This document shows positions 39-52,805 of a stretch of DNA of 64,000 bases, in pieces (within the stretch, counting starts at the first letter, position 1; the number at the start of each line of letters is the position of its first letter). A program made the position numbers and the translations under genes. Below the pieces are notes generated by a model. That model had not been told where the DNA came from, searched no databases, and worked only from the letters and a program-made list of their open reading frames with translations. The DNA is taken from contig CAIIXF020000002.1 in NCBI GenBank assembly GCA_903813345.2, positions 26,302,455-26,366,454 on the forward strand. Reading direction: 5' to 3'. The stretch is from Owenia fusiformis. Its lineage: Eukaryota; Annelida; Polychaeta; Sabellida; Oweniidae.

Positions 39-2525
39 TTTGTATCGTTCTATTAATTGGTATATTGTACAGTACCCTGCGATATGTCATACCAGGAGCC
101 TTTACTCCAGTAGCGTAAGTTTCATATAAATATAATTAGTGGGCCCTGTTTTGATGCATTTTTCTATCAACCGTACAAAATGATTTCCTAACTAAAACTA
201 TATAATCAAGCCGAGATAAATCAGTTAAAGGTTTTTTGAGCAGTACCAAAATATGGAATTGAGATAAAATAAGCCGAATGGAAATCAAAGGCATTTGACT
301 TCAGACTTGACATTAGCAGTTTTGAGGAACTCTTAAATTATGGAAATTAAGATAGAAAAAGATTTTTTTATGTCATGGCAATTGCAGGATAAATTGTTAT
401 AATGTCATTTTACAATCTGTATCAATTTCTCCCCTCAGCATGTAAATCTTTTGAAATTAGAGCATTTGTATCTTTACTTTCCGGACACCCTGTATAATAG
501 TAAATCCTGGGCAAGGTATTATGTACATTTTTGCTTTTAGGAAGATTCGAGATCGTGCTGCTCAAATTATTCTCCAGCTAGCGTTGTCGCAATGCTTTGA
601 CGGCATGCAGGTACGTTAGAAGTTTTTCCCTTGACATGTTGCCCATCCGTATTTTCTTTGTGTATCCCTTTATTGCTCTTCCTAGTCTTAATTGTTCATG
701 AATAGTGGGTATACTTCAATTATTGATCGAGGAAGAAGGCACATTTTGTATTACTATATTTAGTATTACTCAGTTCAATCGTCTTACCGTCTATCACATC
801 TCATATCCGTTTGTTTCGTTGCTACGTTTACCAATCTTATAGTCTATAATGTTCAATGGTATTTCAGCAAGTATGTGGAGGCATTCTCAGAGGGTGCGGC
901 CGACAGACACTGGGCGCATGCGTCAACTTTATAGGGTTCTATATCATTGGAATGCCAGTTGGACTTCCTCTTATGTTCAAAACAAAGCTTGGAATCGCGG
1001 GTAAGTAAGAACAATTATTTACTAATAATGAAGGGCGCTCCGCAATATAGAAGAAGCTTTGAAATCTCGTGAAGTCTCGTTTTAATGAGATCACCGTAAG
1101 GAGAGATAGTCTAATCTAGCCGAATAGGGTAGTATTAGGGTGATATTATTTTCGATTATTTTTATTATTTGCCAGAATTTTTATATGATTTGAAAGTTGC
1201 AAACGATATTAAGAAAATTTAACCACCAAGAAGAAAAATATATTTAATAGTTGAGTAAATGAATGATTGTGATATTTTGAATACGATTCACATATAGGGA
1301 ATTTTAATAATATAAACGGTGTACCCAGTTAAGAAAATGTTTAACCATTATCACCTCTTCCAGGTCATTGGTGGGGAAATGTTCTGGCTTCCGCATTCCA
1401 AGCAATAGTGTTCAACATTGTCATTTACAAAACTGATTGGAAAAAGTTTTCGGATTCGGCACAAGTTAGAGCTGGTGTGAAGTTTGATGAAAAGAAAGTG
1501 AGACCAGATGACGAAGGTGAAGCAACAGAAGAGAAGAAAGAAGAGCCGGTTAAAGGTATAATCATGAGCGAATAGAGAGATTTCGCTCATACGTGATAGC
1601 ACATCTTATGTTTACGCGTTGCTGACGTTTCACAAAAATATGTGTTGATATGTTCCATAAAATGTGTATTTCATCGATCAATTCGAATGTTCTTTTCACC
1701 AAAAAAAGTTTTCTACTAATTCTAACAGGATAGCAATATGAATCTGAGCCAAATATCTCCATGATTCTCATCCAAACTATGAGATAAGTATTCACTCACT
1801 TATAAATAGCGTTTTAAACTATTGCTTTGCAACACAACTCTTTATTTCTAGATGACAAGTTGAACGAAAAGGGCATGGTGGCAAACGGTATATCAGGAAA
1901 GATAGAAGACGATGGTACGTACTTCGCTATGGAGCTTGAGGAAGAGAAACCCAGCCTAATCACTCTTGATACTCTTTCCACCAAGCAATTAATTCTTTAT
2001 CGTGGAGGGGCTGTTGCAGCCGCTTTCCTCATTCTCATCATCGGAATCATATTGTCCGTCACTATCAAGGTCCAAGGTCGACCCCCTGCCTGCCAACAGG
2101 ACGACTTGTCATGTAATGGCTGTACACTTACATCCGAAAGTGTTAAGTGTATGGAGTGTAACCTATTGGCAGATGTTGATGTCGACTCTGGGTATTATTA
2201 CGCCGGTCACCAATTTGCAAAGTATTACTCAAAGTGGCACTCTTTGGACGACAACCATATTAATTACCATGACAACGGATTACAAGGAGAGAGTTATGAT
2301 TGGCTACCGGATTTACCTGATTTTTCATGCGGGAATTGCGTCAAGCAAACGGTTGCGACAACATCCGGTCAAAACCGGAAGTCAAGTTTAACATTAGACT
2401 GTGGAACATGCGCAACTGTTAGAAATGGAATGGGAAACGCATGTAATGTAACATTGAAAAGTGAAAGCTGCAGAGCTAGCAAAATACTAAACGGAGTCTG
2501 TGGTGGATTCTCATTTTTGATTTGA
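39..2525 (+). CDS. MATE-family multidrug/organic cation efflux transporter (SLC47-like), C-terminal five exons
   Basis: Exons read at 39-114, 541-610, 868-1000, 1364-1555 and 1852-2525, each with AG acceptor and GT donor and with matching phases; the 5' part lies before the window. The third exon reads GGILRGCGRQTLGACVNF and continues through IIGMPVGLPLMF, the conserved MATE/SLC47 region near the end of the transport core. The fourth carries WKKFSDSAQVRAGVK, matching the cytoplasmic stretch after TM12 in vertebrate MATE proteins. The last exon has TLSTKQLILYRGG followed by a hydrophobic segment ending in VTIKVQ, the terminal TM13 of animal MATE1. The family exchanges organic cations for protons at the plasma membrane. 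Vertebrate MATE1 ends just after TM13; here about 145 residues follow with 12 cysteines, several as CxxC (CNGC, CMEC, CGNC, CGTC), expected outside the cell. The stop at 2523-2525 may be a frameshift artefact (see next entry). The family call is firm; the exact C-terminus is not. Confidence 0.9.
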
Positions 2526-2679
2526 AGCGTGTAATAGTTTGATAAATAAAGATCCAAATTGGTCACCGGGATTTGATAAAGGGCATAACACAATTTGGAT
2601 GTTTGATATATCATGTTGCAATGGGGCAGCAAAGTGCAATTTCGAGGTCCATTCATTCAATATACAGTGTGTCCCATAA
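2521..2679 (+). other. Out-of-frame continuation of the MATE tail with a Ly6-type CC...CN ending
   Basis: Immediately after the transporter stop, the +1-shifted frame stays open from 2521 to a TAA at 2677. It encodes a peptide containing ISCCNGAAKCN (CC codons at 2614-2619, final N at 2638-2640). CC-x4-5-CN is the hallmark end of Ly6/uPAR three-finger domains, and the in-frame tail upstream supplies the other cysteines. A single-base difference between 2518 and 2525, in a T-rich stretch, would join the two. This could be a sequencing or assembly error, an allelic lesion or a decayed end; I cannot tell which. The last five codons lie in the adjacent MITE, which supplies the stop. Confidence 0.5.
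2545..2550 (+). other. AATAAA polyadenylation signal for the MATE gene
   Basis: AATAAA lies 20 bases after the stop codon of the transporter's last exon. If the out-of-frame continuation is really coding, this hexamer would be inside coding sequence and another signal would be needed downstream. Confidence 0.4.
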
Positions 2680-3470
2680 AAAACGCAACAAACAAAAACA
2701 TTGTAAAATCACAAAACCATTGATGATAACATCAATTTGATTTAGTTTACCAGGAAGCCACATGTCTCCTCTTTCCAATGGTATGTCAGTTATTCATATA
2801 AAACCATGGACCACTGAATAATCATTCCTTTTGCACAACGTGCCGAAATCTGCTCTGGGCCAAGTTTTAGACATTGCAACAAAGAGTCACCAATGAGGTT
2901 GCTGCCCTCCGCCAGAACCCCAGATGATTCAAAGAGGTGTGCGACATGGACACAAAAGCCAGTCTCAGTGTTAAATAGTGGTCATGTGAAAGGGCATGGA
3001 ATGTAATCTTTCATAAGTAATCTTTCATAAGATGACAGACAACGACTGTCTATGCCACTTTTTTCCACATGTCTTGCATTTTGTTACCTGAACCAACAAG
3101 AATACTGATAAATACTTAAAGTTAAATTTTCTTTTCATTTTTTCTTACTAAATCTAAATCAGAAACTTGTGTTATGTAAATCTTGTGACCAAAATATTAT
3201 CCCCAGTACCAATAACATAATGATTTACCTGATTGCACAATTAAGGATCAGTTGATTGATATTTCATTACTTGGCACAAAGGCCTTTTCACCCATGTACG
3301 AAAAAAACAATGATTTTTCAGTGGTCCATGATCAGATATGAACAAATAACATACCATTGTAAAGGGGAGACACGTGGCTTCATGATAAACTAAATGAAAT
3401 TGATGTAATCATCACTGGTTTTGTGATTTTACAATGTTTTTGTTTGTTGCGTTTTTTATGGGACACACTG
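2665..3470. mobile_element. Mariner-type MITE with ~180-bp terminal inverted repeats
   Basis: The ends are CAGTGTGTCCCATAAAAAAC and its reverse complement, flanked on both sides by TA (2663-2664 and 3471-3472), the target duplication typical of Tc1/mariner elements. The arms remain alignable for about 180 bp, through the GGACCACTGAA stretch. No transposase reading frame is visible between them, so this is non-autonomous. It sits about 140 bp downstream of the MATE stop codon. Confidence 0.85.
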
Positions 3471-4543: not shown

Positions 4544-5503
4544 CTAATACCGTGATAGCACATTAATCTCTACCCCCGCCTGACTGGAATCAGATCTCTT
4601 ACAGAATAAGCCTAAGAATGCAGTCCTGTATTCTTTGTACACGATACCATAAATTATGGAGCTGATCACAAGAGAGCTAAATGCAATCGTGAACACAATC
4701 AATAACGATAATTGGTTCGAGGTAACATTGAGATACGATAGTAAAAGAACAATGTGTACCGGTGTCCATGATATCGTGTAGTACACAACCATGAAAGAAA
4801 TGATCAGCGTTGTTTTTGTTTTTTGTTTCGTCATTGATGCTACTTCCACACTATCCTTGCGTCCAGTGGCTTTTAGAATGGAAGTCATCTTTTCAATATG
4901 GACTCGAGCTACCAATAGTAGCCGAACATTCATTCCTGTTATCAGCGCAAGTGCTAACAGTCCGACACACGTCATAAAAACGGCATATATTACAGGGGAG
5001 ACTTCTCCTAAGTTGCAGCTCATAAGATGGCTCGAGCCTGCCGATCCTCTTGATTCAATTATCGAAAGTTTGATGACGGGATACGCTCCAAAAATCACAC
5101 AAATTATAACAGATGTAAGAATGACGACTGCAAACATTTTTTTGGTGACCCACTTTCGATAAAAGAATGGGTGGATAACGGCCGTGTAACGCTCTAACGT
5201 CATCATAAGGATACAATTCACGTGGAAATAAGCAAAGATCAGTAATGTTGAATGGGCTAGAAGACAACCACTCGAGGTTTGGGGTCGTTTAACCAAGATT
5301 TGTACAGAAACAAGTATTCCCAGCGCGATGTTTGAAAGTGATAAAGACACTGCTACAAAGTTCCTTGGATTCCGCAATCGTTTTGTGAAGACCACTGCAA
5401 TAATGATAACCATATTAACGATGATGATAATGATGGAGAGAGTGACAACAAGTGAAGTGAAGACTTTCATCTCTGTTGCGTTGACGACAGTTTCATTATG
5501 CAT
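4544..5503 (-). CDS. Rhodopsin-class (class A) G-protein-coupled receptor, divergent orphan, single exon
   Basis: From the Met at 5503-5501 the frame encodes 319 aa with seven hydrophobic segments. The frame is open for 44 codons further upstream, but this Met is followed by MHNETVVNAT, a short extracellular N-terminus with two N-glycosylation sites, so I prefer it. Class A landmarks (residues from this Met): N30 in TM1; C80 before TM3 and C163 in loop 2 as the usual disulfide; ERY at 104-106 (DRY variant) followed by TAVIHPF; SWTP at 245-248 in TM6; Y285 ending TM7; C301 as a possible palmitoylation site after helix 8. Several near-universal residues are changed: TM2 has SLSN where Asp is usual, TM4 lacks the conserved Trp, TM5 lacks Pro, and TM7 has SSIIY in place of NPxxY. 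The ligand cannot be inferred. The short third intracellular loop (about 30 residues) argues against a large amine receptor. Confidence 0.88.
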   Translation of the reverse strand: MHNETVVNATEMKVFTSLVVTLSIIIIIVNMVIIIAVVFTKRLRNPRNFVAVSLSLSNIALGILVSVQILVKRPQTSSGCLLAHSTLLIFAYFHVNCILMMTLERYTAVIHPFFYRKWVTKKMFAVVILTSVIICVIFGAYPVIKLSIIESRGSAGSSHLMSCNLGEVSPVIYAVFMTCVGLLALALITGMNVRLLLVARVHIEKMTSILKATGRKDSVEVASMTKQKTKTTLIISFMVVYYTISWTPVHIVLLLSYLNVTSNQLSLLIVFTIAFSSLVISSIIYGIVYKEYRTAFLGLFCKRSDSSQAGVEINVLSRY

Positions 5504-6248
5504 TGCGTATCGGATCCGTATTGCTCTTGGGATGATGAAGATATTCCTGAAAAAGTACATGTAGGTTTTCAATAAGAAGTGCAAATGTTGGTCAAAAACT
5601 TTTATATTTTGCCATGTCTCGGCCAAAATTTGCATTTCTGATCAGTAGTTATTACAAAAACATCGAAAACTAACAAAAACCTCAATGAAACTAGTGCGAA
5701 AATAGAATCAGAACATGACTTATGCCATTAACAACGATGGATGACATAACCAAAATAGAACAAATTAAATTAACTAAAACAAATGAAATTGACAAATGTA
5801 TGGTCATTAATCATTCTAACAATTGTTATCAGACATACCAATCACAGCTGATAAGAGATGTGGACTCTTCTAGGAGGGACAAAGCAATGGTGATTTCATT
5901 TGAAAATATCAATACACTTGTAGGATGTTTCATGTTACATTAACAATGGCTACAGCCCCTGTGATCCTTCCCCTCTCTTTACTTGACCACATTCTCAACA
6001 GTTATTGTAGATGGGGCAAGATTCACAAGGGCTTGTAGCTAGACTTTATTGTGAAATATATGACTTCTGATACATATGGCATGCTAGTGAAGTGTGCAAT
6101 GTTTAGTTTCTTATGTACAATTTGAGTAAATTAATACAAAATAATAGGTAAAAACAAAAGTTTTAGAGCAAAAATAGCTTTTTAGCTAAAAATCACAATT
6201 GGACGGAACCAGCATTTATTTTTGTACCTTAAACGTCGTGAGGTTAAT

Positions 6249-10777: not shown

Positions 10778-10855
10778 ATGAATATGATTGTGTCAAGATT
10801 TCATTTATCATTTTTATTTGTTCTGTTTTCTCACCAATCTACAGGACGGAGATCA
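10778..10855 (+). CDS. Ly6/uPAR gene exon 1: signal peptide
   Basis: Twenty-six codons beginning MNMIVSRFHLSFLFVLFSHQ and ending STGRRS before a GTAAG donor. It shows a short basic n-region, a hydrophobic core FHLSFLFVLF and a polar c-region, with cleavage plausible near STG. An in-frame Met two codons later (10784) could also start. Confidence 0.7.
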
Positions 10856-13800
10856 GTAAGTACATAAACATTGTATCTTAACTTACATTTTTATGTTTGT
10901 TTTTGACTGTTTCGGTAAAAATCTACTTTAAGTTTGAAGAATCATATAAGCCTGTAGCCTATTGTTTTTATACCGAAAAGTCTCCTCTGTAGGCCAGGCT
11001 GGAGGAATACTAGTGTGATGGGTCTCGTTACAAAACAAGCTTACATACAAATGGGGTCGATATTGCCCACTGCCTGACCTACTTCAGGGTTAAGACTGAA
11101 CGGTCTTGTAGATATTTAATAATATAACCGTACATTTAATCACTAGTGCTTCCAAGGGACAACGAGGCGAACGAGTCCAATTAGGCCAGGGGATTGTCCA
11201 GCGGGGTCATCGTTTGGATGTGTACGATTCTATTTCCAAAGACAAGTGCATCACTCGTGCTACAACAAAGATGAAATCCCATGTCCAGGAAGTTTTATGG
11301 TAACTTTAATTTAAAATCACCTTCCATTTCATTTCATTTCCATAAACCTACCCTAGTATACATCAATTGAGCAATTACTGGCTTACGTTATCGAAAATTG
11401 TTTTTATATTCCTGTCCCCAAAAATTCTAAATCCACTTTTAGGCATTCGGAGGTTCTCAGGTTGTGTGTTGTGAAGAGGACGATTGTAATAGTCCACCAG
11501 AGGGAGGATGGGAACGCCACCCCCCACCAGGGGGTTTGGGGCCAGGTGTATTTATACCAACATCCCCGACGCTTACAACAAAGAAACCCAATTTATATGT
11601 AAGTAAAGCAAATCGAGTCTTGGCTGCTAAAAGTCTGAGGGGCAATTCGGAACAAGAACAAATTGCGATTGATTGAAATACCTATTGTTGGACCCCTTGG
11701 GTCAGTCCAATGGATTGTTAAAATTACCTAATTTTGTAAGGAAAGAAACAACAAGTCGATTCCTTAATACTAAATTTATTTAATAATTTTGAAGTCTTGG
11801 ATCGAAAACATTACAGAATAATATGTGTTTACTGATAAAAACCTAGCCGAAAAAGTGCTACAAATTCTTTACAACTGCCTTTTATAGTAAGACAGAAGGA
11901 AGAAAACTATAAAATACAATGCAATTAATCATTTATAAACATCTCACAATAAAGAAACAGGAATATTCTCAAAGAATATTCTCTTAGGAATAAAGAATAT
12001 TCACAAGGAATATTCTCCATCATTTATAAACATCTCACAAATAAGGAATAAAGAGATAGGAATATTCTCAAAGAATATTCTCTAAGGAATAAAGAATATT
12101 CACAAGGAATATTCTCGATCATTTATAAACATCTCACAAATAAGGAATAAAGAAATAAGAATATTCTCAACTGTCAACAACATGACATAGTGTGAAGAAG
12201 TCAAGGAATAATGTATCTTTGGCAAGAAGCCAAAAATGAAGAAACTAATAAATCAATCAGTCCTAATATGAACTAAAAACCCTAAAATAAAATGTCCAAC
12301 ACTATACTAAACACTGACGGATCCAGAAGCTAACAAGGGGGGGGGGGGATTTCAAATCAGGGCCCAGATTTTGAAAATTTAAGGTCCATTTGTGATAAGT
12401 TTGCCAAAAAGGCCCAAAAAGGCCAAGCAATGACTTAAAAAGGCCCATTCATTAAGGCCCTTCGAAATCTTTGGGCCCCAAACTTTTTTGGCTCACTTAT
12501 TTCTGGTCCATCCATGGGGGAGGGGGGTATGGATCCGCCAGTGCTATACATACATTATTAACAGTGAATACATACGTACATGTATAACAAAATCCAGGAG
12601 TGATCAGAACTCTCTTATCTGCAAAAAATGCTACACTGTCACCTAATTAATGTTTCACTGCTAATCTTGCCTACACTCCATCATTTTTTATTAATCAACA
12701 GCATAGCGGGTGTTTAGATAAACACATCAATACATTCATCTGTGTGTATTTTAGTGTTTTGGTTCTGCCAGCGATGGCTCTGATAACCTACAGAGTACAC
12801 AGTGTGGCTCAGATACAGGGACATGTGTGAGGTTTGCATCGCAGAAAGGCATGATATACACCTGTCTTCCATCGGACTCTATGGGAGGATTGTCGTGCGA
12901 GGAACACATACAAGTAAGTTTATTGAGGACGTCGGTGTTTCGTAAATACTGTGCAAAATCACGTCGAATGTGGATTTTGGAATCCATATGAAAGGAGACG
13001 TATATAAACTAGATATTAGGCCCAATCTGAACATTTGCTATGAACATGAACACGTCCACAACAAAATAGTTCTAAATTATCATACTCATTTCAATGAGCC
13101 CGCCTCCAAGCTAAACCAGGGGTCCCCTCCGATCCATTGCAATTTGATTTATTATGGTTCTGGCAAGGAGGATTGGCTCCCAGGGTACAACATCGGTATT
13201 CTGTTCTATATCGGGTGTCCCAAAAAAATGAGACACTTTTTGCCAAGTATTTTCTCGGCAACTGATGAACCAAATTTTTTGAAAATTTGTACAAAGTAGC
13301 CCAGGAAAATTGTTAGTAAGGTGCAGAAATATGACAAAGATCAGATAATTTTTATGCGAGTATTAAGAAATTCAAGATAGCATGTCAAAATGTCCCATAC
13401 CGGAGCAATACAATGAGAATTTTTATCGCGTTTGTACCAAAAATGGGAAGAAATTAGACAAGTGATTTCTCAGCAATAGATGAGCCAAATTATTTGAAAA
13501 CTTTACTTGAGGCACTTAAGGGTATTTTCTGCTCGTGCTATAAATATGTAAGAGATTGGCTTCATATTATGTGTGTATTGTTGAATTAAAAACAGTATGT
13601 AAAAATAACCAATATCGATGTAAATCTCACTTATTAATCCTTTTCATGCAAATTACCTTTCCGTATTTATTCTTAACAATATCACCTCAAATGAATTTTG
13701 AGAATGAATGGATTTTGGATATTTGGGAAGAATGAAATGAATTAAGTAGACATGACACACAGACAAGCTATTTTGACTTATTTACAAATGCTATCACCTG

Positions 13801-19800: not shown

Positions 19801-22800
19801 GGTTAATTCGCCATTTTCTGTCAGAATGTTGCATTTAATTAGAAAACTTCTTAATTTTCTCAAGTAGGTCAAAATACCGTTAAAACATGTAATCCTTGAA
19901 CCTGAATTGCTGTTTTCTTAACAACTTAATCGTTTCCTATCATTTTTAAATTCATGGATAGATTGATACAGAACTTATTTAAATGAATAAACGATAGTAA
20001 ACCATACACTCCAGTATCTACACGAGTTGAGTTCAATTGTTTAATGTTTTATATGTCTCTGAAAAGAGTAAGCACATTTGACATTGAGTTAAAATATAAA
20101 ATGTTTACATGATTTGGCCTTGGTGTACGATTTGCATTAAAACATTAATATGTTACATTCAAAATATAACTTTTATTGACATTAGTCTTTAATAAAATGC
20201 CTAATTATTTGTGAGATAATATGGATTTGATTATATTGAACAATATAATTCTAATAATATTTGAGATTATCAGATTATATGGCGGTTCTGCAAATAGCCT
20301 TATCTATCTCTTATTTATATCTACAGGGTGTCCCGAAAGTATGGCCCCCCTAGGCAGACATATTCCAGTGTCCTCATAGTATGTGTCATATCTCATTTTA
20401 AAGCTTATCCGAAGTTACATTGATTTGCCAAGTATCATGGTTTAACTTCAAATGGTAAAAAGTTACAGTCATTTTAAAAGTTAGTGTTTTGTCAAAATAA
20501 AGTTCAATTTTACACCACATTACTAGTCAATGAGTCCCCACTTGGCCATGTTAACATCCGCAATTCTTTTCAGATATGACCTTAAAAGCCCTTCAAATAG
20601 CGGTGTGGAATTTTATAACCTTCTTAAAACCTGTTTAGGCACTTTAGAGGAGTTTCCTTAGAGTTTCTACCCTCATCGTTCTCTTTTTCCAACTCAATAT
20701 CCATCCGACCCGAAAAAGATTGCTGCTGTTATAGATGGCCCAGGAGGACACATTGACTAGTGATTTGGTGTAAAATTGAACTTAATTTTGACCAAACACT
20801 AAATTTCGAAATGCCTGTAATTTTTTTCACATTTGAGAGTTGAACCATGATACTTGGCGAATCAATGTAACTTTGGATAAGCTTTAAAATGATATATGAC
20901 ACATACTATGACGACACTGGTATATGTCTGCCTAGGGGGCCCCATACTTTCGGGACACCCTGTATATTATGTGTTTATTTCTTTTTATGATTCTACTCTC
21001 TTCTGTTTGATAGCGTTTGGGAGGATTCGACCCACTGTGCTGCCGAACCAACTATTGCAACGAGCCACCACAAATAGTAAGTCAAACACATTTATCCTTA
21101 CATTTGAAAACGTTAGTCTATTCAGAAGTGTTCCAGATGCCAGCATATGCTTTAGTTGCAACCATAGGCCGATATAAAGATGGCAGCACGATTACCATGC
21201 CATCTTTATTTAAAAATTATTTTTATTTATCTCAGCCTATTGCCAGTTGCAACATTTGAAATGACGCAGGTATTAAAGTTCCGATATCCATTTAGTATTT
21301 CTTCGTCAAGACTGTGGACACTTATCTACTTCACAAACAAAATAAAGTAGTTATGCTTGGGGAGGGGGGGCACAGGGGCTTGTAGCTTACCCATCATTTA
21401 GTCCCCTAGCTAGCTGGTAAGAAAGGTGCACTCGATGATTCAGTGTGACATGTACTGAAGAGTGTGGGGGGAAGAATTAGATATTTTACATTTATGTGCG
21501 TTTGAGTGCAGCGATATTAGCTCATAAATGTTTTCTTAGGCGTCGTGTAAATGGAACTGGTGTTCGGTGATTGAGTGTGTTTATTCAAGCGTGAACTTCG
21601 TTGTAGTGTAATGCCTTGGTCACATTTGCTCCGATTTCCACTACGGCGCCCGGCCGATTGAGTATTTTGTTCAAAATTGAATACAATATTGAACAAAACA
21701 CTCAATCGGCCGGGCGCCGGCCGATGGATCGGAGCATATGTGACCAAGGCATTAATGTGATGATATCGTGTTGCTTCATTTCTGAGCTTAGTCACTGAAC
21801 CATACTCATAAAATTTTTGAAAAATGTATTTCTGTATTTTTAGTATGTAGTATTGATATATATTGTAAAACATTTACATGTCTTTGATTAATCGCGTACC
21901 TTTTCTGTTGCATCTTTTAAATGTGCGCTTGGCTTTCAAGGTTCAAACATCGACTTTGAATCTACCTTCATGCATATTTCGAAAAATAGATTCATCAGAG
22001 AAGGTTTTAGACCAGGCAATCACATCTATAGTCGGCAAAACCTTATTTCTAATCATTTTATCCTCTCTATATCGCCGTGTCACTTATAGAACAAAAGTCG
22101 ATTAAAACACTTAAATGGGATTGAGTCGCATGCATCACTCGCAATACAATTTGTGATTTATAGATGGCAGGACAGTAGTCACTTAGGTATTTGTAGCATT
22201 TACATATCAAGGAGGATTAGCTCACAAAGTGCAACAACGATATTTTTGCGATAAATGGGCATGTCATGATTACAAAATCTAATTCAAATAGCCGCCATTT
22301 TGTTCACTTCAACATTTGAATCGTGAATTTTGACCGAGATATTGGTTCCAATCTTTTGGACTGTTTATTTTGAATTTATAGTTGGTTATAATTTCAGAAA
22401 CTTCGACGTTTTCATTGTTGGAAAATATCGAGTTTCGATCTCAGGAGCTAATTTTCCTTGAATACATATAATGGAATTTATTTATACTTTATATAGATGG
22501 CATGATCGAGGCGGTAGCATCGAGGCTAAATGAAATCTAGAATCGGGAAACTTGTTGATTAAAATGGTGAGAGGCTGTAGGTGTTTTCAGTATTATAATA
22601 GGTCGCAATGTGATATTCATATTTGGCCCTTTTCAAAATTAAAGGCCCATTTTTGATAATTTGGCGTAAAACTAAAAAATGCCAATTGAAGCGGCCCATT
22701 GCCCTGCTCCAGACGCGCCAATGTTATCACTTGAATTGTTGTGGTTTAATCTAACAATGCAATTTTTAGCTCTTATTTTTAGTTTAACGAATACCAATGA

Positions 22801-37800: not shown

Positions 37801-40800
37801 TCAAGTTCACAGATACATGTAGATAAAATGTAGAAAATGAAAGAAGATACGTTATATTCAGACTATATAAGAATGGAGAACAGTAAAACCTGTGTATAGT
37901 GAACATTTTTTTGCCAAGAAGGTGTTCACTACAGTAAGGCTTTGATTTCGCGGCATCTTGCCGCATTTTTAACATGGGAGTCAATGGGTGGAAAACGATT
38001 TTGCCGAAAAAATGTTCACTGTGGATAGGTGTTCACTAGGTGTTCACTAGAGACACAGGTTTTACTGTATATGGGCTTAAACAGTTTGAATCCTAAATAA
38101 AGAAACATCTTAATGTCATCACATCATCTTACATATTAAGATGTATCTGATGGTTGTAATATTTTTACTTGGCAAATATATGAATTAGAAACAAACTGAT
38201 GCTAATCAATAACCCAATATCTTATATATTAGTGCTACCAACAAAACATCGACCTGACCATAGGTCTCCAGGATTGCGGCCCGAACGATACGAGTGTATG
38301 TGTATCGTATACGAACAACCAGGGAGAAAAACATTATTTGTGCACATCTCTGCACTCGGTTGATGAGTGTGTCAATACCTTCCAGGTGATCTCTGCAATT
38401 TGTTAGCATCTTGCGAATGGCCTGGCTTGGAATGGGAAATACACAATGCTTTGTATATTCCTAACCGTTCATCCACATGCACGTGTTTTTATCCATTACC
38501 ACTACAAACAATACTTTGAATTGATACTTTGGAAGATCTAACCTTGGATATTGATAGCATGAATTGTGTTACGATTAAACGATCGAACACCCCCTCCCCA
38601 ACTAAAATACCTTAATTTCAATGTGTGATGATGCATGTAAACTAAAACAACTAACACACTATCTTGCAGTGCCATGAAGGAAAACGGAGAGAAGCGAATG
38701 AAGAAACAGGTTACCCTCTTGTTGAATGTCAGCCAGACGACGACACATGCGCCGCCTATCGAGCGCCATCACAAACAACAACATATTATCTTTGTTTCAA
38801 TGACCGAACCATGGAAAATAAGTGTCGTATTTTCTTGGAGGTAAAAAATGATCTTAAATAAACTAATTTGATAAGAAAGTTCATATTAAGTTCACTTAAC
38901 AAACATGTAGAAATTATTTAATCTTATTTTTTCATACTGTTAAGAATGGCCTATATATGTATTGGAAAGAGAAACACGAGTAATCGAAATATGACATATA
39001 TAAACAATAAACACTAGCAAACAGATAGATGGCATGCAAAACGCAAATTTTAAAAGATGTTTACTTTTAATGTTGACAATAGAATACAAATTTTTCTAAA
39101 AAACAATAGAATTATAATAGCAAATAGAAAGATAGCATGTAAAACGCAACTTTCACCAGATATTTACTTTAAACATTGACTATCAGAATACAATATTATA
39201 CAGAAAAATGGCATGTAAAACGCAACTTTTAAGATATATTTACTTTTAACGTTGACAATCAGAAACAATATAATCTGAAAAAACGATAGCAAATAGAAAG
39301 ATGGCATGCAAAACGCAACTTTCAGCAAAAATTTACTTTCAACGTTGATAACATGATAGCATATGTATTGCATGTGTATTGCATTTATTGCTTATTGATT
39401 AGTTGATTAATTAGAATGTGATCCACAAGTCATGTATGTTGCCGCATTCTAATGCTTTGAAGTCGATCTCATCTAAAGGGTAGTTAAGCCCAATATAGCC
39501 TACCAGCTAAAAACAATTTAATATGCTAGTTAATAGAATATTTCTAAGGCATTGCAAACTCTTTTGAAAATTGTAAAATACATTATGAAAACGACTCAAT
39601 TCACTATGTTGAGAGTCCGGCATGCACATTTTATTTTGGTCGTCCAGAGGTTGCTTCTCCTCTTTGTAATATTAACTTGCCACGTTCACGCAAGCAAGTA
39701 CAAATGCGAAGATAAACATACCTAGTATATTGTAAAATAGGCGTGTTCTTGATGTATACAAAAACATTATGTACATTATCTATTTCAAGACCCACCCAGC
39801 TGAACTGACCATGAACTATGATAAACGTAATTTCATATGTCTAATATTTCATTATAGATTAATATACAGTTACTCGAAAAAAGATAATTATGAATTACGA
39901 TAATTGCTTACTCGCTTCTTCGAAATCATAATGATATCTCAGTTAAAGATATGAGGTCACCTTATTGTGGACAGAAATATGTAAACATGATACGAGGACA
40001 CTTGCACCTATTCCTTCTCAGCATTTTTATAACTTTACTCAATAGGCTCTAATTTACTGGCTAGACGGTGTAAAATTTATGACTCGGTTAAGGTTCATTA
40101 TTTATATTGAATATGCTACGTTTTCAGTCTCAGGGTCTTCTGGACGTTGTATGCTGCAAGAGTGATGGGTGTAACGGCCCAGGTGGCGGTACTGGGGATA
40201 TAGTCTACCCGAAATCAACATCAGAGCCATCTATATCTATTAATGTAAGGTTTAAATTGTATTCACACATAGCTAGGCGAACTGTGTCCGATTCGAGACG
40301 GTCCAAACACAGTATTCCATATAACTGCAGTGAATTATATAACCAATCACCTTCTTATGTTGTTGTCAAGGTGACACCTTGACTCTACAGAAATAATACT
40401 TTGCAAACTTGACCCTTGCAAAACGTCACATTAAAAGAATGTTCTTTTAATGATTTTGCAATGTGTAAAAATAATTTAAGCCCAAGATTAAATTTATTTT
40501 GGAATGACCATTCCTTTCAGACGTTGTTCTGTAAAATGAACACTTGATGCTGCGCAATTTGTGGATAGCAACACCTCAAGGGAATGGTCAATCCACGTTG
40601 CACCGAGTCAAGAGCTTAAATCCTTAACCATTGTCTGAACTGTATGCCAACCATTCATTCGAAGAATTTATAAGATTAATTATCTGAACGTGCACTGTCA
40701 TGCACAAATATGGTATATGAAGGTCAAAGACATTAAAATATTTCTGTCACAAATCATTTTATCTAATTTGATTGTGAGGATATCAGCAATTCAACAACAT

Positions 40801-42437
40801 GTATTATTTATAATTAAATTAGGCATACGTATTGTTTGAACAGAGTAATCAAAGTACAGTTTGAAAATGAAACATGATAATATAGGGTGTTTCAAAAATG
40901 TAATCAACTGACGATGTACATCTTTTTAATATGAAAAGTATTCCAAATCTTGTACGGCATCACTAAAGCTGGTTCAGTGTTCCTCAAGTTGATAATGTGA
41001 GAAAAAATCAAAAACATTGGTTCAGGCTCTATTGGTTAAAAAATATATGCATTGTTAGGTATATGAGTTGCATTTTTCTGAAATGCATGCTTGTATATCA
41101 TACTAGGTATCATCATTGTAGTGTCCATTGGTGTTTAACGTCATGTATTTCATTTTTAAGAAAGGTTTAGACATAAAAGTGATGCTATTCAAAACCCCAG
41201 TTTTCTGTTACCAGCCTTTCATTTATTGCTAATAGTCTAACATTGTTTCAGTGCTATTCGGGTGTCGAGGGCTCTGGAATGCCTATAATTCCTACTGAAT
41301 GCTCAAACAGTGATACATGTATCCGGTTCATACATCAGGGTCAGAAGCACTATACATGCGCAAATTCTATGTCCGTAGATTGCCCCGAATATTACCAGGT
41401 ATGTATAATGCTTCAGTCATATTTCTACGGCAACCGTACGGCGACCGTACTTCCCAAAATTACACCTACTGTAGAGCAAATGTGACTGAGGCTCAAGCAA
41501 CAATGTAACAATCAAGAAAGTATGATTATATTGTAATATTTATTTAGAATATTAAAATCATATTAGGGTCAAAGATGCAGGAAGTGACCATGGTTTCCCT
41601 GAAATCAGGTAACTTAAATATCTAAATTGGTTTCAGGCAATTGGTAGAACTGACGTCCATTGTTGCAGCGAGGACAACTGCAATGTACCCCATGATGGTA
41701 CAGTTCCAGAAGGAAATAGCAAACAAAAGGTACTCTAATTAAGTTAAAGATTTTTGATTTAACATTTAAGAATTATTTGTAAAGTGTTACCTTTATCTTC
41801 AATTTCATACTATGATTGTTTTTAGTGCTACTCTGGTAGTTCTGATGATCTTCAGAATCCTGTACGTGTGATTGCATGTAACAGTCTGACAGGAACACCC
41901 CTAGCTGATGCAGACAGTTGTGTCAAGGGAAGGAGGGGTGATACACTGTTCTATGGATGTGCCACCTCAACAGAATGTCCAGAAATGTTTTTAGTAAGTG
42001 GTCACCAAATGATTAAATAACAGTTATTTGTTTCATATTTGAAGGAAATATATGGTATATGCAGATATGTCTAAATTTACGTTTATGATTATTGAACTTG
42101 TAAAATGGGGCTCCCAACTTTTTTTCACAGTGTGCTGTGTCAAGCTATTATACACCAGAAAATTCAATGAAATGTATCGAATGTTTTGTTTCAGCAAATG
42201 GAAGCCACTGATGTAGAATGTTGTGCTGAAAATAATTGCAATATACCGCCCGACATGACAACACAGACTTCTTATAAAACAACTAAAAATCCCGAATATG
42301 AAATAAAAACTGAAAAACCTGATAATGGATCAAAAGATACAAGTTCGTCGACGAATATTCAGCTGATATTTAGTGCAAAAACATACACAATCGTATTACT
42401 GCTTGTTTCAAGAGTTGTAAATATGTGCATATTGTAA
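10778..42437 (+). CDS. Secreted, probably GPI-anchored protein with five Ly6/uPAR domains (11 coding exons)
   Basis: Exons: 10778-10855, 11147-11299, 11443-11598, 12755-12913, 21014-21076, 38670-38840, 40128-40244, 41252-41398, 41637-41729, 41826-41993, 42195-42437. Every junction is AG/GT and phase 0, and all exon lengths are multiples of three, giving about 515 aa. Exon 1 encodes a signal peptide; exons 2-11 alternate strictly between a first-half exon starting with Cys (CFQG, CFGS, CHEG, CYSG, CYSG) and a second-half exon carrying CC-x4-CN (CCEEDDCN, CCRTNYCN, CCKSDGCN, CCSEDNCN, CCAENNCN). This is the disulfide plan of Ly6/uPAR three-finger domains, which act in cell-surface recognition. 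The last exon ends in a hydrophobic segment (YTIVLLLVSRVVNMCIL) like a GPI signal. Introns are large (8.1 kb and 17.6 kb), so two separate genes are conceivable, but one signal peptide and one anchor favour a single gene. Ligand unknown. Confidence 0.8.
11147..11598 (+). CDS. Ly6/uPAR domain 1 (exons 2 and 3)
   Basis: Exon 2 (11147-11299, 51 codons) has Cys at its first codon, then GDC, GCVRF, HSCYN and IPCPGSF. Exon 3 (11443-11598, 52 codons) has VVCCEEDDCN, then a long Pro/Gly linker (PPEGG, HPPPGGLGPG) and Thr-rich SPTLTTKKPN. That linker could be O-glycosylated as a spacer between domain 1 and domain 2. Confidence 0.82.
11930..12170. repeat. Tandem repeat of ~95 bp, about 2.5 copies
   Basis: Units contain CATTTATAAACATCTCACAA followed by several AATATTC/GAATATT palindromic words (AGGAATATTCTC, AAAGAATATTC). 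It lies in intron 3 of the Ly6/uPAR gene. Confidence 0.7.
12312..12543. repeat. Small inverted-repeat element with G-rich interior
   Basis: CACTGACGGATCC at 12312 pairs with GGATCCGCCAGTG ending at 12543. The interior has a G run near 12340 and repeated AAAGGCCCA words. A diverged piece of similar AAGGCCCAT sequence is at 22620-22720, and another may be at 54245-54320. Confidence 0.6.
12755..12913 (+). CDS. Ly6/uPAR domain 2, first half (exon 4)
   Basis: Fifty-three codons from CFGSASDG, with TQC, GTCVRF, IYTCLPSD and LSCEEHIQ, closed by a GTAAGT donor. The C-V-R-F motif recurs in exon 2 (GCVRF) and as TCIRF in exon 8, tying it to the same domain family. The partner half is exon 5, 8.1 kb downstream. 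Confidence 0.8.
13165..14266. mobile_element. Inverted-repeat element, AAGGAGGATTGGCTCCCAGG family (copy 1), split by a later insertion
   Basis: The left end at 13165 (AAGGAGGATTGGCTCCCAGG) pairs with the right end CCTGGGACTCAATCCGCCTT near 14245-14265. Its right part (14040-14260) aligns with the copies at 22208-22460 and 51549-51855 through TTGTTGGAAAATATCGAGTT and the GAGATATTGGTTC words. The middle is occupied by the MITE at 13211-14033. Confidence 0.75.
13211..14033. mobile_element. Mariner-type MITE nested in the preceding element
   Basis: The ends TCGGGTGTCCCAAAAAAATG and the inverse (CATTTTTTTGGGACACCCGA) are flanked by TATA on both sides (13207-13210, 14034-14037). Subterminal arms match through TTGCCAAGTATTTTCTCGGC. 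No transposase frame is visible. It lies in intron 4 of the Ly6/uPAR gene. Confidence 0.8.
14491..14496 (-). other. AATAAA polyadenylation signal of the SLC22 gene
   Basis: TTTATT on the plus strand reads AATAAA on the minus strand, about 105 bases past the SLC22 stop codon at 14602-14604, a normal spacing. Confidence 0.5.
14602..16443 (-). CDS. SLC22-family organic ion transporter (OCT/OCTN-like), intronless, nested in the Ly6/uPAR gene
   Basis: From the Met at 16443 the frame encodes 613 aa; 24 more codons are open upstream, but MKFDDALGLLGGFGRYQ is the classic SLC22 start. SLC22 proteins are 12-TM major facilitator carriers of organic cations, anions or carnitine at the plasma membrane. 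Seen: a large TM1-TM2 extracellular loop (about residues 43-145) with Cys residues and N-glycosylation sites; the MFS motif LISDKFGRKP (163-172); SESPRWLIAKGRYQEAE (277-293), the SLC22 signature after TM6; GEIFPTPARNVGLGSGSSFG (457-476) in TM10-11; LPETKNKRLPETFEEAE (515-531) after TM12. A longer hydrophilic tail of about 80 residues follows, rich in Ser, Asn and Gly. The substrate cannot be assigned from sequence alone. The gene has no introns and lies antisense within intron 4 of the Ly6/uPAR gene. All motifs are intact, so it looks functional. Confidence 0.93.
   Translation of the reverse strand: MKFDDALGLLGGFGRYQLLVMVVWNVFSAGNGWQYILTVFIAGRMDHWCKVPELQHFNETMQKHIAIPKTTGQLGDTVFKQCSMFNYNYSAINFTDPNIIDTWMRNETISEIACNSGWVFDQSERYSTAVSQYGLVCENNWMYTLPATFQMLGLLFGAFLAGLISDKFGRKPTTLGMMVCAIGAITGGAFSDNFILFLAMRWLSLLASIGAYTSLWVLSLEMMQPVHRTHATLYSSILRILRALLTLTAFFVRGHKWLQIISALVTIPGLIGVFFLSESPRWLIAKGRYQEAEDISRRIAKINKVTLPDNFTLKDDVTTKEEHQNEGPVNKVLVLDLFRTPNMRRRTLVIWVQWFAVVFGAYAMALNVGTLIPGNVYLNNLIINGVADLLSPILLLVVLFKMGRKSIIITFFIVNGVLALSLIGLLPTKIMALTTTIAMCGALLINTVFRVMYLYSGEIFPTPARNVGLGSGSSFGRIGGLISPNIPLLGSIWYGLPYLILGFFPLIAGGLAFLLPETKNKRLPETFEEAELFGTKKMGENIDSGQAAVRNSSTSGLGSVNDGFTSDGNANPVADDKYDRIKNGERNNGGLMNKANHNSRDAGFNNILDLTML
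16951..18826. mobile_element. 1.9-kb foldback (near-complete palindrome) with CACCGTACAG motifs
   Basis: The left arm starts CCACGCCTTACCATCGCGTA and the right arm ends with its inverse (TACGCGATGGTTAGGCGTGA). Inner landmarks also pair: GTTTGGTTATTATCTTCCCT with AGGGAAAATAATAACCAAAC, and AAGATGGCGGACAGGAAGT with ACTTCCTGTCCGCCATCTT, with the centre near 17890. CACCGTACAG or its inverse recurs near both outer ends and at the inner arm ends. No transposase frame. Its left end is about 500 bp upstream of the SLC22 start codon. Confidence 0.8.
19434..19505 (+). tRNA. tRNA-like sequence, probably a pseudo-tRNA or SINE head
   Basis: An A-box-like TGGCTCAGGGGTAGA and a B-box-like GGTTCGATTC have tRNA spacing. 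The anticodon arm TCTGC-CTCGAGA-GCGGA can pair and would give anticodon CGA. The T-stem 3' side is degraded, the acceptor stem does not pair, and there is no long variable arm as a Ser tRNA should have. Probably not a working tRNA. Confidence 0.35.
20324..20962. mobile_element. Mariner-type MITE, 639 bp, TA target duplication
   Basis: The ends CAGGGTGTCCCGAAAGTATG and inverse are flanked by TA (20322-20323 and 20963-20964). The arms also share AAGCTTATCC(G/A)AAGTTACAT and CCATGATACTTGGC. No transposase frame. It ends about 50 bp before exon 5 of the Ly6/uPAR gene. Confidence 0.85.
21014..21076 (+). CDS. Ly6/uPAR domain 2, second half (exon 5)
   Basis: Twenty-one codons reading RLGGFDPLCCRTNYCNEPPQ then Ile, between a GATAG acceptor and a GTAAGT donor, phase 0 on both sides. 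The CCRTNYCN motif fits the CC-x4-CN end of the domain begun in exon 4. It is short, with almost no linker. Without the domain context it would be easy to miss. Confidence 0.72.
21610..21753. repeat. Hairpin MITE, 144 bp, GC-rich arms
   Basis: AATGCCTTGGTCACATTTGC at 21610 pairs with GCATATGTGACCAAGGCATT ending 21753. Inner arms CGGCGCCCGGCCGATTGAGT and ACTCAATCGGCCGGGCGCCG pair almost perfectly around an AT-rich centre (CAAAATTGAATACAATATTG). Much more GC-rich than its surroundings. Confidence 0.8.
22208..22460. repeat. Element of the AAGGAGGATTGGCTCC family (copy 2)
   Basis: It starts CAAGGAGGATTAGCTCA and ends TGAGACC-type inverse (CTCAGGAGCTAATTTTCCTTG). The interior shares TTCATTGTTGGAAAATATCG and GAGATATTGGTTCCAATC with the copies at 13165 and 51549. 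It lies in intron 5. Confidence 0.65.
22461..26816. other. Intron 5 interior, no gene seen
   Basis: AT-rich DNA. I searched the plus strand for further CC-x4-CN exons and found none with splice signals. It contains a fragment similar to the 12.3-kb element (22620-22720) and an AATTGAAATATC-rich stretch near 24590-24730. GAACGAATGCAAAGGGTA near 23984 recurs near 34133 (short dispersed repeat). Confidence 0.4.
26817..26850. repeat. Possible mariner terminal repeat remnant
   Basis: TAGGTCGTTCAATAAGTTCG resembles the terminal repeat style of some mariner-family transposons. I found no opposite end or transposase nearby, so this is at best a remnant. Confidence 0.25.
28283..28395 (+). repeat. Direct repeat inside the foldback (partner 30012-30122)
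   Basis: GTAGAAATAATCTTG and CATTAAAAATTCAAAATTCA, then TCGTATTTGAAATCT/TCATATTTGAAATCT occur in the same order and orientation in both places. Direct orientation is unexpected in a palindrome and points to an internal duplication or rearrangement. Confidence 0.7.
30515..30592 (-). tRNA. tRNA-like sequence, probably pseudo-tRNA or SINE head
   Basis: On the minus strand GTAGCTCAGCGGTAGCGC (A box) and a T arm with GATTCGATCCCCGG (B box) are well preserved. The anticodon region CTCTTACGC does not form a proper 5-bp stem and the acceptor ends do not pair. It sits within the foldback at 26921-32705. Confidence 0.4.
32706..34164. other. Intron 5 continuation, no gene seen
   Basis: AT-rich sequence. 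A B-box-like GAGTTCAATTCC near 33250 is the only weak hint of another tRNA-derived repeat. No exon with splice signals and Ly6 cysteines was found. Confidence 0.35.
34165..34494. mobile_element. Foldback MITE of the CAGTCACATTT family, 330 bp
   Basis: The arms TACACCCCAGTCACATTTCC and inverse pair through CTACGGCGACCTTGCGGTCT, then TTTCTGCG and CGCTCTCATACTTTTGCAGT; an AT-rich centre separates them. Related elements are at 36170, 41411, 48262 and 61100. Confidence 0.82.
34495..36169. other. Intron 5 continuation, nothing recognised
   Basis: No coding exon, RNA gene or clear element. A short inverted pair, GAAAATTCGGGAATA with TATTCCCGAATTTTC near 35782-35820, forms a small hairpin. Confidence 0.35.
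36170..36331. mobile_element. MITE of the CAGTCACATTT family, 162 bp
   Basis: CCCCAGTCACATTTGATCTA pairs with TAGAGCAAATATGATTGGGG. The interior has AGTACGATGTCGATTTTCTG and GAAGCTACGGTCGCCGTACG, which recur in the element at 48262-48375. Confidence 0.8.
36332..37880. other. Intron 5 continuation, nothing recognised
   Basis: AT-rich, with a partial terminal-repeat-like TACAGGGTGGGCCAAAAACG at 36544 that resembles a mariner-type end without a visible partner. No exon candidates. Confidence 0.35.
37881..38067. mobile_element. Small MITE, 187 bp, ends CAGTAAAACCTGTGT
   Basis: CAGTAAAACCTGTGT at 37881 pairs with ACACAGGTTTTACTG ending 38067, flanked by A-rich/TA-like sequence. The interior repeats GTGTTCACTA and AATGTTCACT words. 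It lies about 600 bp upstream of exon 6. Confidence 0.8.
38670..40244 (+). CDS. Ly6/uPAR domain 3 (exons 6 and 7)
   Basis: Exon 6 (38670-38840, 57 codons) starts CHEGKRREANEETG and has VEC, DTCAAY, YYLCFND and NKCRIFLE before a GTAAAA donor. Exon 7 (40128-40244, 39 codons) has LLDVVCCKSDGCNGPGGG, then a Ser/Pro linker (KSTSEPSIS) and a GTAAGG donor. The 1.3-kb intron holds the tandem repeat at 39010-39350. This domain begins after the 17.6-kb intron 5. Confidence 0.82.
39010..39350. repeat. Tandem repeat of ~90-100 bp, about four copies
   Basis: Units share AGATGGCATGCAAAACGCAA (or a close variant), then TTTACTTTTAACGTTGACAA. They lie in intron 6. Units differ by substitutions and short gaps. 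Confidence 0.65.
40265..40650 (+). repeat. Dispersed repeat, copy 2 (partner at 7775-8160)
   Basis: Same word order as the copy at 7775, including CTTGACCCTTGCAAAA, GGAATGGTCAATCCACG and CGAGTCAAGAGCTTAAATCC. It lies in intron 7. Confidence 0.6.
41252..41729 (+). CDS. Ly6/uPAR domain 4 (exons 8 and 9)
   Basis: Exon 8 (41252-41398, 49 codons) begins CYSGVEGSG and has TEC, DTCIRF, YTCANS and DCPEYYQ. Exon 9 (41637-41729, 31 codons) has VHCCSEDNCNVPHDG and a short linker. Cysteine spacing matches domains 2 and 5. Twelve bases past the exon 8 end a MITE (41411-41492) begins, leaving the GTATGT donor intact. Confidence 0.85.
41411..41492. mobile_element. MITE of the CAGTCACATTT family, internally deleted, 82 bp
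   Basis: CTTCAGTCATATTTCTACGG pairs with GTAGAGCAAATGTGACTGAG. The interior keeps CAACCGTACGGCGACCGTAC but lacks the AGTACGATGTCG segment seen at 36170 and 48262. Confidence 0.75.
41826..42437 (+). CDS. Ly6/uPAR domain 5 and GPI-type tail (exons 10 and 11)
   Basis: Exon 10 (41826-41993, 56 codons) begins CYSGSSDDLQ and has IAC, DSCVKGRRGD, YGC and TECPEMFL, then a GTAAGT donor. Exon 11 (42195-42437) has VECCAENNCNIPPDMTTQTS, a hydrophilic Thr/Lys-rich stalk, a small-residue stretch KDTSSSTN as a plausible anchor site, and the hydrophobic end YTIVLLLVSRVVNMCIL with TAA. The intron between them is 201 bp. This exon pair is duplicated as a pseudogene at 48516-49100. Confidence 0.85.
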
Positions 42438-45400
42438 ATAATGTAAAACTGTTAAATAATATTAATGTAAATATGTAAATATTATATATTCATATTCGTT
42501 TGATTGTTATTGTTTGCGGATAAAGTGAGAATTAACACGCAGTTTTTGTGGGTTTGACCTACGCATTTGATATTTCATATAAATATCATAAAATATATTC
42601 TAAGTGATGGAAGAATCACGTCTTCAATGGATTCTTATAATGGTATAAATTCATTTCGAGAATTTCTAGATAAAAAACTAGTTACCATACACCCCGATTT
42701 TATACAGTCCTTCAGGGAGGTGCATGGGTTAGGGAACATGGTACAACCCGGTGTAAAAGGGTAGGAGGTCCTCTCAAAGTATGGTCCTACTCTCCATTGA
42801 TTTATATGGTGACCTAAATACAACTCTCCCTCATTATCTTATACGCAATCAGGGCCAGTAAGGGCCGTTAAGAAATTGGACCATAATCCCTGGGGGACCA
42901 TCATTTCTTTCACACCGGAATCATTTCCAAATAGCAAGGCACAATACAAAACTGAGAGCATCATGTTTATGTTGAACCAGTCCGTCTAATGTAGGATGAA
43001 GACAACAATGATATGTATAACTCTCCACCGCGTCCATGTCAAGTACATTTTTGATTTGAGAGATTGAGATTGAGATTTTTGGAAAAAACAAAACTGCCAA
43101 AATTGCGACACCCTTCTTTCGATTTTAGACTACGTCAAATTGAATTTTAAGATCAGCTTTTAACATTAACTGACACAGCATTTAATAAGAAATCATATTT
43201 GCTTCATCTCAGATCTGATAAACCTTTCTGGTCTATGTACACGCACTATGTTTTTATTTGTTAGTTAGAAATATAAATTAGAATTAGTGTAGGACAGTAA
43301 TGTATGGTACTACACGAATTCTATAATGCTTATTTCAAATACATAATCAACGTTTTGCCTCTACATGGTACTTATACCATTATCTCTGGAATGACTGGAA
43401 GTATTAAGAATCCCTTTGTCCTTGTATACATATATAGGCCTAGGGTGTCTCAAAAATGTACCAAAAAGTATATCAATAGCAAAAGTAAACCAATCGATGT
43501 GTTCAGGTATTTTTACATGGTCATGTTGCCAATGAATGTAAGTTTTCTCCCCAATACAAATTCTTTAGTTCAAACTTGCCTTTTAAGTGCTTTAAAACTT
43601 TTTATACTACATGTTCAATGCAACCTCCTCATATTTCGATGACAGCCTACATCCTTACTGCTATTGTCCGTCACATTAAATAATGATTCTGGTGGAATGT
43701 TTTGAAATTCTCTTTGGATGTTGGCCTTAAATTAGTCTTGGTCTCTCGGCTTGGAATTAGCATAAACTCGGTTCTTTAAGTTACCCAAGAATAAAAGTCT
43801 GGGGTGTCAATACTGTTGAATAGGGAGGGCCTCATAATGTATTTATAAGAGAGATCGAACATTGAAGAAACTGCTTTCATTAGAATTCTCGCGTAGCCCT
43901 TGCTGAATTGCCAGCTAAGAGGGGCTCAATCATTTTGAAACCACTGTGTTTTCATTTGGATATCATTTGGTTTTTGGAAGTTGGAATTCCAATATCAACT
44001 CCTTAATCAATTAAATTAAATAAAAATTGAAATGGTTCTCTGTGATTTTCCTGTCATCTTCATCCTCGAATATCTTACTCTTGGGCTATTTGAAGGGGCA
44101 TTTTAAGTTAATCCCAATTTAAGGCAGAATCTGATCTATAGGGGTGACAAAATTACAAGCAACATTGTATAATTGACCTAACAATCTTTTACTTACAATA
44201 TCAAATACAATATCTCCCAAAGATTCACAATATGTTATAAATTGGTGAAGGTATTATGATTCAAAGTGTAAAAATGAGTGAAAAATGTTTAAATTCTCCC
44301 AAATAATGAGAATGGTTACCATTCTTATAGAAAAAGAATACATTATTGTAAAAATCGTTAGTTTTCCTGGAATAAGTAAAGTATGCACTTTTGTGATTCT
44401 TAGAAAATAGACATGACAGGGAATGAAATGAGCCAAAAATATTCTACAATTGAAATCATTTTTAGTTTAGCCTGCTCACTATATCTGATTCTCTCTTTAA
44501 GCCAAACGACCTACGTAACGTAAAGCCAACATCCAAAGAGAAATGCAAAACATTCCACCCAAAACATTTTCAAATGGGATCAACACTGTAGCACTAAGGG
44601 TGCAGGCTATCATCGAAAATAAAATAAAAAGTAAAGGGTTAAAACGTCAAAAAGGCAAATCTGAACTCAAAACTGCGTTCACCATTGTTACTTCAGAGTT
44701 TAGCTTCTTCACCTTTTTTTCGACCAAGTTATTATTGCAAAAAACTACATTTAACATGCTATGAAGGCTTAGGTATATCTCCCCCCTATCATCAAATATT
44801 ACTTTGATATCTATTGAATGATTCATTTCTGCATAGCTAGCGTGAGATCAGTGCATGCATTAATATCAAATCATCAACAGGCAAAATACCACCACCTGCA
44901 ATGTGATACGGATTCCAACCGCCGAACACCATCCACAGTTGGAGACTAAAACAGTATGTCACCTCTTTGGGCAGTGACATAAAATGATAGTGGAATTAAA
45001 AAATACAACAGCCTGTGTATTGAGAGAACAGGGACAGGGGGCTATATCAAGAGATCCGATGTATGTGTGTGTGTATGGTAAGTCGAAAATGGAATAATGG
45101 GTTCCGCTACTTAATAAGTATTGGATGGGGAAACCAAATGAGGCGAATCATTTATGTTCCCTGCATTAGGGTTAAAAACCATCGAGACAGCATTGTGTTT
45201 ATGAGAACACGTCAATCACTTACGGTAGTGATAAATAGAAACTCACCCAAGGTCATCAACCTATGATGTCGTCATGCCTAAAGCTATGGATAAACCGTCT
45301 TGAGATATTCTCTGTATTTCAAAATTGATTTGATAGAACGAATAGTTTCGTTTTGAATGTTTTATTTGTAACGCTGTCAGCTCTCACTCTGAACACTAAG

Positions 45401-52130: not shown

Positions 52131-52805
52131 ACACTCCCCTCCATAAGTTTGGCAACCTTAGCTCCCCCATTGAAATATGTGTTAAAGCCTATTTACGTTT
52201 GAATATTTATTTACTTAACCTGCGATGAAATAACTTATAATATTGATGGAAACGTAGCATGACTTTATTTCCAATACCTCCAAATTTTCTCAATTTTTTC
52301 CTCAATTACAATAGGTCGAAAATTGATGATAAATTTGAGGACTTTTTCAAAATCGACATTCCCATGTTAACCAATGGGAAATGGAAGGTTTGCCGCAAGT
52401 CATATGACAGAATATCCATCCATCCGAGTTCTTGCAAAAATACGAATCGGGTAGGTAATTGAATTTGCTAACTTTATTTAACAAAAAATTGAAACGTTTC
52501 TTCAGGTTCAACACAGTTATAGGGCTTTAAAGTCAAAATTGTTTTTCAAAAAACCTCTCCCATTGAAATAACACAGGAGGCGAAAAATGATTTTCAAAAA
52601 TGACTTTGAAGCTCCGTAACTTTGGTATTCATCAAGTAAACTAAACACTTTGTGTACAAAAAGTTAGACAATTCAATTTCTTATATAATACTATTTCTTA
52701 CTGAATCTTTCACTGAATAGATATCCTGGTTTCTGATTTGCCCCGAACCCACCATTTCCCATCGGTTTACATGGGAATGACGATTTTCAAAAATTCAACA
52801 AATTT
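52131..52805. mobile_element. Truncated copy of the ACACTCCCCTCCATAAG palindromic element
   Basis: The left end (ACACTCCCCTCCATAAGTTT) matches the complete copy at 60025. Sequence is shared through AGGTCGAAAATTGATGATAA and GTATTCATCAAGTAAAC. The right end is missing; the sequence stops near 52805, where the retroelement fragment begins. Confidence 0.75.

Follow-up and report, generated by a model that had tools for sequence, protein, structure and literature searches.

The window analysed here, a stretch of 64,000 nucleotides from the annelid Owenia fusiformis, opens inside a MATE transporter gene whose last exon runs on well past the final membrane segment, which raises the question of whether this efflux pump carries a cysteine-rich extracellular domain and, if so, whether that domain is of the Ly6/uPAR type, as an earlier reading of the sequence alone had proposed. 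We consider it reasonably probable that the locus holds the 3' part of an animal gene for an SLC47/MATE proton/organic-cation antiporter, with a last exon that specifies a cysteine-rich extension ending at an in-frame TGA, because homology to human MATE1 extends to membrane segment 13 (TM13), the frame beyond it is unbroken, its codon use is weakly coding-like and its cysteine pairing is non-random.

The last five exons of one plus-strand gene occupy the first 2.5 kb of the window (Table 1). All five lie in one joined frame, with AG before each exon, GT after all but the last, and a good acceptor directly 5' of the last exon (start 1852). When the exons were joined as far as TM13, the resulting 231-residue query aligned to human MATE1 (PDB 9r10) over residues 18-231 of 231 (E 2.4e-31), and the alignment continued through residue 570, where the human chain ends. 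The joined exons also matched Pfam MatE above the cut-off (E 4.1e-9) and TIGR00797 below its cut-off (7.1e-13), and the frame 850-1008, which contains exon 868-1000, came just below the MatE cut-off when searched alone. By its alignments with human MATE1 and Pfam MatE, the gene is the 3' part of an SLC47/MATE transporter with its 5' part outside the window, which bears out the MATE call of the sequence-only reading. Homology to the transport core covers the C-terminal part that the window holds, and the extra C-terminal membrane segment 13 of animal-type MATEs is seen both in the alignment and as a hydropathy peak. The alignment with SLC47A1 takes in the helices of the core, the long charged loop and TM13 and reaches the very end of human MATE1; however, the human chain stops at TM13, just as that reading had held, whereas here 149 more residues with 12 cysteines follow.

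Table 1. Positions of the features discussed, numbered from the first letter of the window
Feature	Position	Strand	Basis or description
MATE exon, fifth from the end	39-114	+	AG/GT borders, joined frame
MATE exon	541-610	+	AG/GT borders, joined frame
MATE exon	868-1000	+	AG/GT borders, joined frame
MATE exon, end of core and start of charged loop ahead of TM13	1364-1555	+	Splice sites, human MATE1 alignment
Last MATE exon, with charged loop, TM13, cysteine-rich tail and TGA (2523-2525)	1852-2525	+	Splice sites, human MATE1 alignment
Predicted membrane segment 13	about 2004-2066	+	Hydropathy maximum
C-terminal tail	2076-2522	+	149 residues with 12 Cys and four CxxC pairs; single N-glycosylation sequon (2445)
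Adjacent shifted frame, coding doubtful	2521-2661	+	Four Cys, including CCNGAAKCN
AATAAA, nearest behind the TGA	2545-2550	+	
Non-coding transposon-like element	2665-3470	+	806 bp, long terminal inverted repeats, flanked by TA
Intronless GPCR frame (rhodopsin family), convergent with the MATE gene	4544-5641	-	7tm_1 3.2e-22
Three-finger (Ly6/uPAR-like) module cluster	10778-11676, 21014-21078, 38233-40240, 41252-42437, 48516-49100	+	
Intronless transporter frame, 643 codons	14602-16533	-	Pfam Sugar_tr 3.4e-28

Elsewhere in the window, retroelement pieces at 52804-54259 on the minus strand include a zinc knuckle (Pfam zf-CCHC 0.0033, below cut-off) and a frame that we take, from its motif, to be retropepsin-like, and a long simple-repeat stretch (62749-64000) keeps several frames open on both strands. 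A tRNA scan and an Rfam scan at the gathering threshold returned no hits in the window. The intronless transporter frame is one that we read, presumptively, as SLC22-like; PMC7404265 describes organic cation transporter 2 as working in series with MATEs in the kidney. Together with the GPCR frame and the introns, this transporter points to an animal source for the DNA.

The tail shares exon and frame with TM13 and reaches the TGA without an intron, with all 12 cysteines (an even number) at or beyond 2085; these features, with the 149 codons of our recount, agree with the roughly 145 codons, 12 cysteines and CxxC pairs first noted past the last membrane segment. Four CxxC pairs compare with 0.89 expected by shuffling (p 0.006). 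A stop-free run of 145 codons occurred in only 2 of 20,000 first-order random sequences with matching dinucleotide make-up, and in 11 of 70,000 overlapping windows from 17-52 kb, a largely non-coding region scanned on both strands. The tail frame is the only stop-free frame of the six and also has the best codon score of the six, at +0.025 per codon, or +0.014 when training excludes the MATE exons. Under this codon-use model, whose training set was just three genes for membrane proteins in the window, the tail scores about as high as the held-out GPCR frame (+0.031) and well below the held-out MATE exons (+0.181), and a score so slightly positive counts against the reading that we prefer. With this fair, if inconclusive, support, the tail is probably a real coding extension, although the gene model may instead splice off ahead of it.

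Relatives of the tail were sought in Pfam, in solved structures and in viral and prokaryote contigs, collections that hold no animal genomes, and none was found; nor did the 64-kb window hold a second copy, the right-frame search matching only itself at E up to 1. Both count among the points against our preferred reading. A pattern search of the viral and prokaryote contigs matched 3 and 40 stretches, respectively, with 0 confirmed as tail relatives. The structure search, without a match for the tail, is an insensitive one, as a local three-finger module found its only three-finger match there at E 1. A single-sequence structure model, made for the tail frame with the shifted piece left out, was uninformative (pLDDT 32). 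A zinc-ribbon interpretation of the four CxxC pairs was set aside, as the NCBIfam Elf1-like model matched the tail at E 0.0096 with 15.8 against a cut-off of 109 bits, which we take as cysteine-driven chance.

Behind the TGA, the adjacent frame does carry ISCCNGAAKCN (2608-2640), as the sequence-only reading had pointed out, and its CCNGAAKCN (2614-2640), the one Ly6-like feature here, is out of frame with the tail. The two frames overlap by 5 bases only (2521-2525), and therefore any simple shift between them would fall at the TGA itself. Most properties of the shifted frame are ordinary: it stays open for 47 codons before the transposon-like element, as did 1749 of 20,000 random sequences; at least four cysteines in 46 residues were found in 371 of 4,392 stop-free windows; and its codon score of -0.080 was equalled or exceeded by 69% of 4,392 stop-free 46-codon windows from 17-52 kb. 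Its CC-x5-CN ending is rare. The chance of CC-x(3-6)-CN per 47 codons ranges from 1.7e-4 (window composition) to 7.2e-4 (local composition), and the pattern occurs seven times on the plus strand of the window, once as this CC-x5-CN and six times as CC-x4-CN, and 0 times on the minus strand. A chance of only 2e-4 to 7e-4 behind a cysteine-rich frame argues that the shifted frame was once coding, and this coincidence is a further point against our preferred reading.

The nearest AATAAA starts 20 bases past the TGA, which speaks against a coding role for the shifted frame; with 79 such hexamers on the plus strand in 64,000 nucleotides, one would fall within 30 bases by chance about 4% of the time. 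The transposon-like element begins 139 bases behind the TGA, and its inverted arms are 171 nt long and 89% complementary. With terminal inverted repeats, flanking TA, a longest frame of 63 codons and no transposase frame, it has the features of a non-autonomous element, presumably of the Tc1/mariner-type superfamily judging from the TA and the terminal sequence. An exact-match search with the element's end returned nothing in two sequence collections. As the element begins before 2679, the last codons of the shifted frame and its stop there derive from the element or its TA, so the gene end at 2679 that had been suggested does not hold: the element starts earlier, at 2665. Another long inverted-repeat element (20319-20967), with arms about 88% alike, ends some 50 bases before the three-finger exon at 21014.

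The same strand also carries, at 11-49 kb, a cluster of three-finger modules with CC-x4-CN endings. Each of the four complete modules has two exons, eight cysteines and an intron after the cysteine preceding CC, and the spacing ahead of CC is 13 residues in 4 of 4. Read by eye, the first module begins with a signal-peptide-like exon, and the 42-kb module has a hydrophobic, GPI-type C-terminal end; at 21 kb, only the second exon of a module was found. A recent duplication links 41819-42692 and 48509-49405 (88% identical over 917 aligned columns), and the 48-kb copy may be decaying, since its frame meets a stop where the 42-kb copy has its first-exon end.

PMC6600238 describes a Ly6/uPAR domain as 60-90 residues long, with ten cysteines bonded 1-5, 2-3, 4-6, 7-8 and 9-10, the tenth followed by Asn; two exons typically encode it, and the intron lies inside the domain. 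The tail in its own frame does not fit this description. When an X bridges the tail and the shifted piece, nine cysteines fall within the final 84 residues; their order is consistent with the eight-cysteine pattern of the local modules with one cysteine added, and this joined reading agrees with the description only in length and, roughly, in cysteine order. The joined reading ends in CC-x5-C followed by N, an ending that the actual tail frame lacks, and has 27 residues ahead of CC against 13 in the four complete local modules. The tail lies within a single exon, and the introns compatible with a two-exon structure score poorly.

An HMM search for a Ly6/uPAR fold, which had been put forward as a check, returned no Pfam three-finger family for the tail or the shifted piece searched apart, a result that proves little because single unspliced module exons were likewise without a three-finger match. 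Joined by X, the pair gave nothing in Pfam up to E 10; this is the fair comparison with the spliced modules, whose best three-finger matches were weak (E 0.59, 0.0036, 0.02 and 0.001 for four modules and 1.3e-4 for a tandem pair), none reaching the curated cut-off. The Pfam control is independent of the kinship among modules, but weak. We also built a profile of the local modules, which was tested by leaving out four modules in turn and against which the tail was scored with all five included. The 48-kb exon, recently duplicated from its 42-kb counterpart, was omitted from both flank and profile models; the module with a first exon only (38233) entered the profiles but was not itself a left-out test; and the 21-kb exon, whose first exon was not found, served only in the model of the flank before CC. 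Left-out modules scored 30-68 bits, a level that 0 of 500 shuffles reached in each case, whereas the Ly6-like 84 residues scored -0.7 bits, equalled or exceeded by 173 of 500 cysteine-fixed shuffles, and the tail as a whole -7.7 bits (259 of 500). By hhalign, the left-out modules reached probabilities of 94-99% and the MATE tail 0.2-0.3%, a control that is generous because the modules are tandem relatives of one another. The eight residues ahead of the shifted-frame CC rank only 5th among 79 non-module CC pairs; the five module exons, each left out in turn, had flank scores above all 79.

The evidence upholds one half of the proposed Ly6/uPAR ectodomain, the long cysteine-rich extension behind TM13, and not the other, its Ly6 type, which profile searching left unproven, with no Pfam match and a shuffle-like score against the local profile. 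The locus resembles a Ly6/uPAR domain in its out-of-frame CC...CN ending, its many cysteines and its probably extracellular position, but differs in lacking a profile match and an intron within the domain, and in having CC-x5-CN in an ending that is out of frame. Similarly, it shares strand, neighborhood and CC...CN ending with the local modules, but these have two exons, eight cysteines, CC-x4-CN and the shorter spacing before CC. Since CC-x5-CN seldom arises by chance and the order of the cysteines lends itself to a Ly6-like reading, the Ly6 idea is weakened rather than dismissed: the Ly6 label for the tail is unsupported, and a strongly diverged domain is possible.

The alternative that fares best takes tail and shifted frame together as one cysteine-rich ectodomain, present now or until recently, whose C-terminal domain would be a divergent three-finger (Ly6/uPAR) one; a single-base mutation, polymorphism or assembly error would interrupt the ectodomain here, and the transposon would have landed at its very end. 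The rarity of the CC-x5-CN ending, the module-compatible order of the nine cysteines and the three-finger gene cluster on the same strand speak for it. We nonetheless regard it as unlikely, given that the joined pair found nothing in Pfam where spliced local modules gave weak matches, that it scored no better than many shuffles while left-out modules far exceeded theirs, that the flank of the CC gives no support and the shifted piece is not coding-like, and that the putative domain has no intron, x5 rather than x4 and a spacing about twice that of the complete modules. A more specific history, in which a fusion of a MATE with a three-finger ectodomain arose beside the expanding three-finger cluster and was cut here by the shift and the transposon, seems distinctly doubtful.

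Also rather unlikely is that the tail has no function, being either untranslated sequence that is translated by read-through or a piece of a gene copy in decay. Consistent with this are the lack of relatives in collections without animal genomes, a codon score well below that of the MATE exons and a transposon so close behind the stop; yet the upstream exons and their splice sites are intact, and both the openness of the frame and its cysteine pattern exceed chance. A short, unrecognized intron linking the cysteine-rich frame to the shifted frame is improbable. Frame-compatible GT-AG pairs exist, and the best of them (2368/2527, 160 bases) has a donor of 3.5 bits, within the 0.5-10.3 of known donors, but its acceptor of 1.4 bits falls below 14 of the 15 window acceptors scored by a leave-one-out procedure, and the best eight pairs share that acceptor or use a worse one, each removing tail cysteines. 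A programmed +1 frameshift at the TGA, like that of antizyme genes, which would extend some of the protein molecules by the shifted frame, is highly improbable, since the 5-base overlap does put a shift at or next to the TGA but the shifted piece is not coding-like and no relative shows conservation.

Returning to the cysteine-rich extension as our preferred reading, the C terminus of MATE1 lies outside the cell, and by homology the tail is therefore probably extracellular; a literature description allows MATE C termini to be intracellular or extracellular. The 12 tail cysteines would then pair as disulfides outside the cell, and the tail could form a small, compact ectodomain that stabilizes the pump or binds a surface partner and takes no part in transport. 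Stabilization or partner binding would be likelier than a transport role because an ectodomain behind TM13 would be far from the transport path. CCNGAAKCN, in the other frame behind the stop and close to a transposon and a potential poly(A) signal, is most likely either untranslated or a relic of an older tail that was longer.

MATE proteins are given as 400-600 residues with 12-13 membrane segments, and animals with MATEs include the acorn worm and lancelet, with none found in the sea urchin, according to PMC4928094. Literature on MATEs with Ly6, cysteine-rich or extended C termini described no such tail in the titles and abstract openings of the matches listed, and such tails may be common among invertebrate MATEs. 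At present, the tail is a feature of one gene in one assembly. A three-finger fusion, if true, would make this a drug pump with its own surface recognition domain. More generally, a disulfide-rich ectodomain on a MATE, if true, would point to regulation or docking from the cell exterior; should relatives share the tail, one could test for a conserved extracellular handle on an exporter of organic cations.
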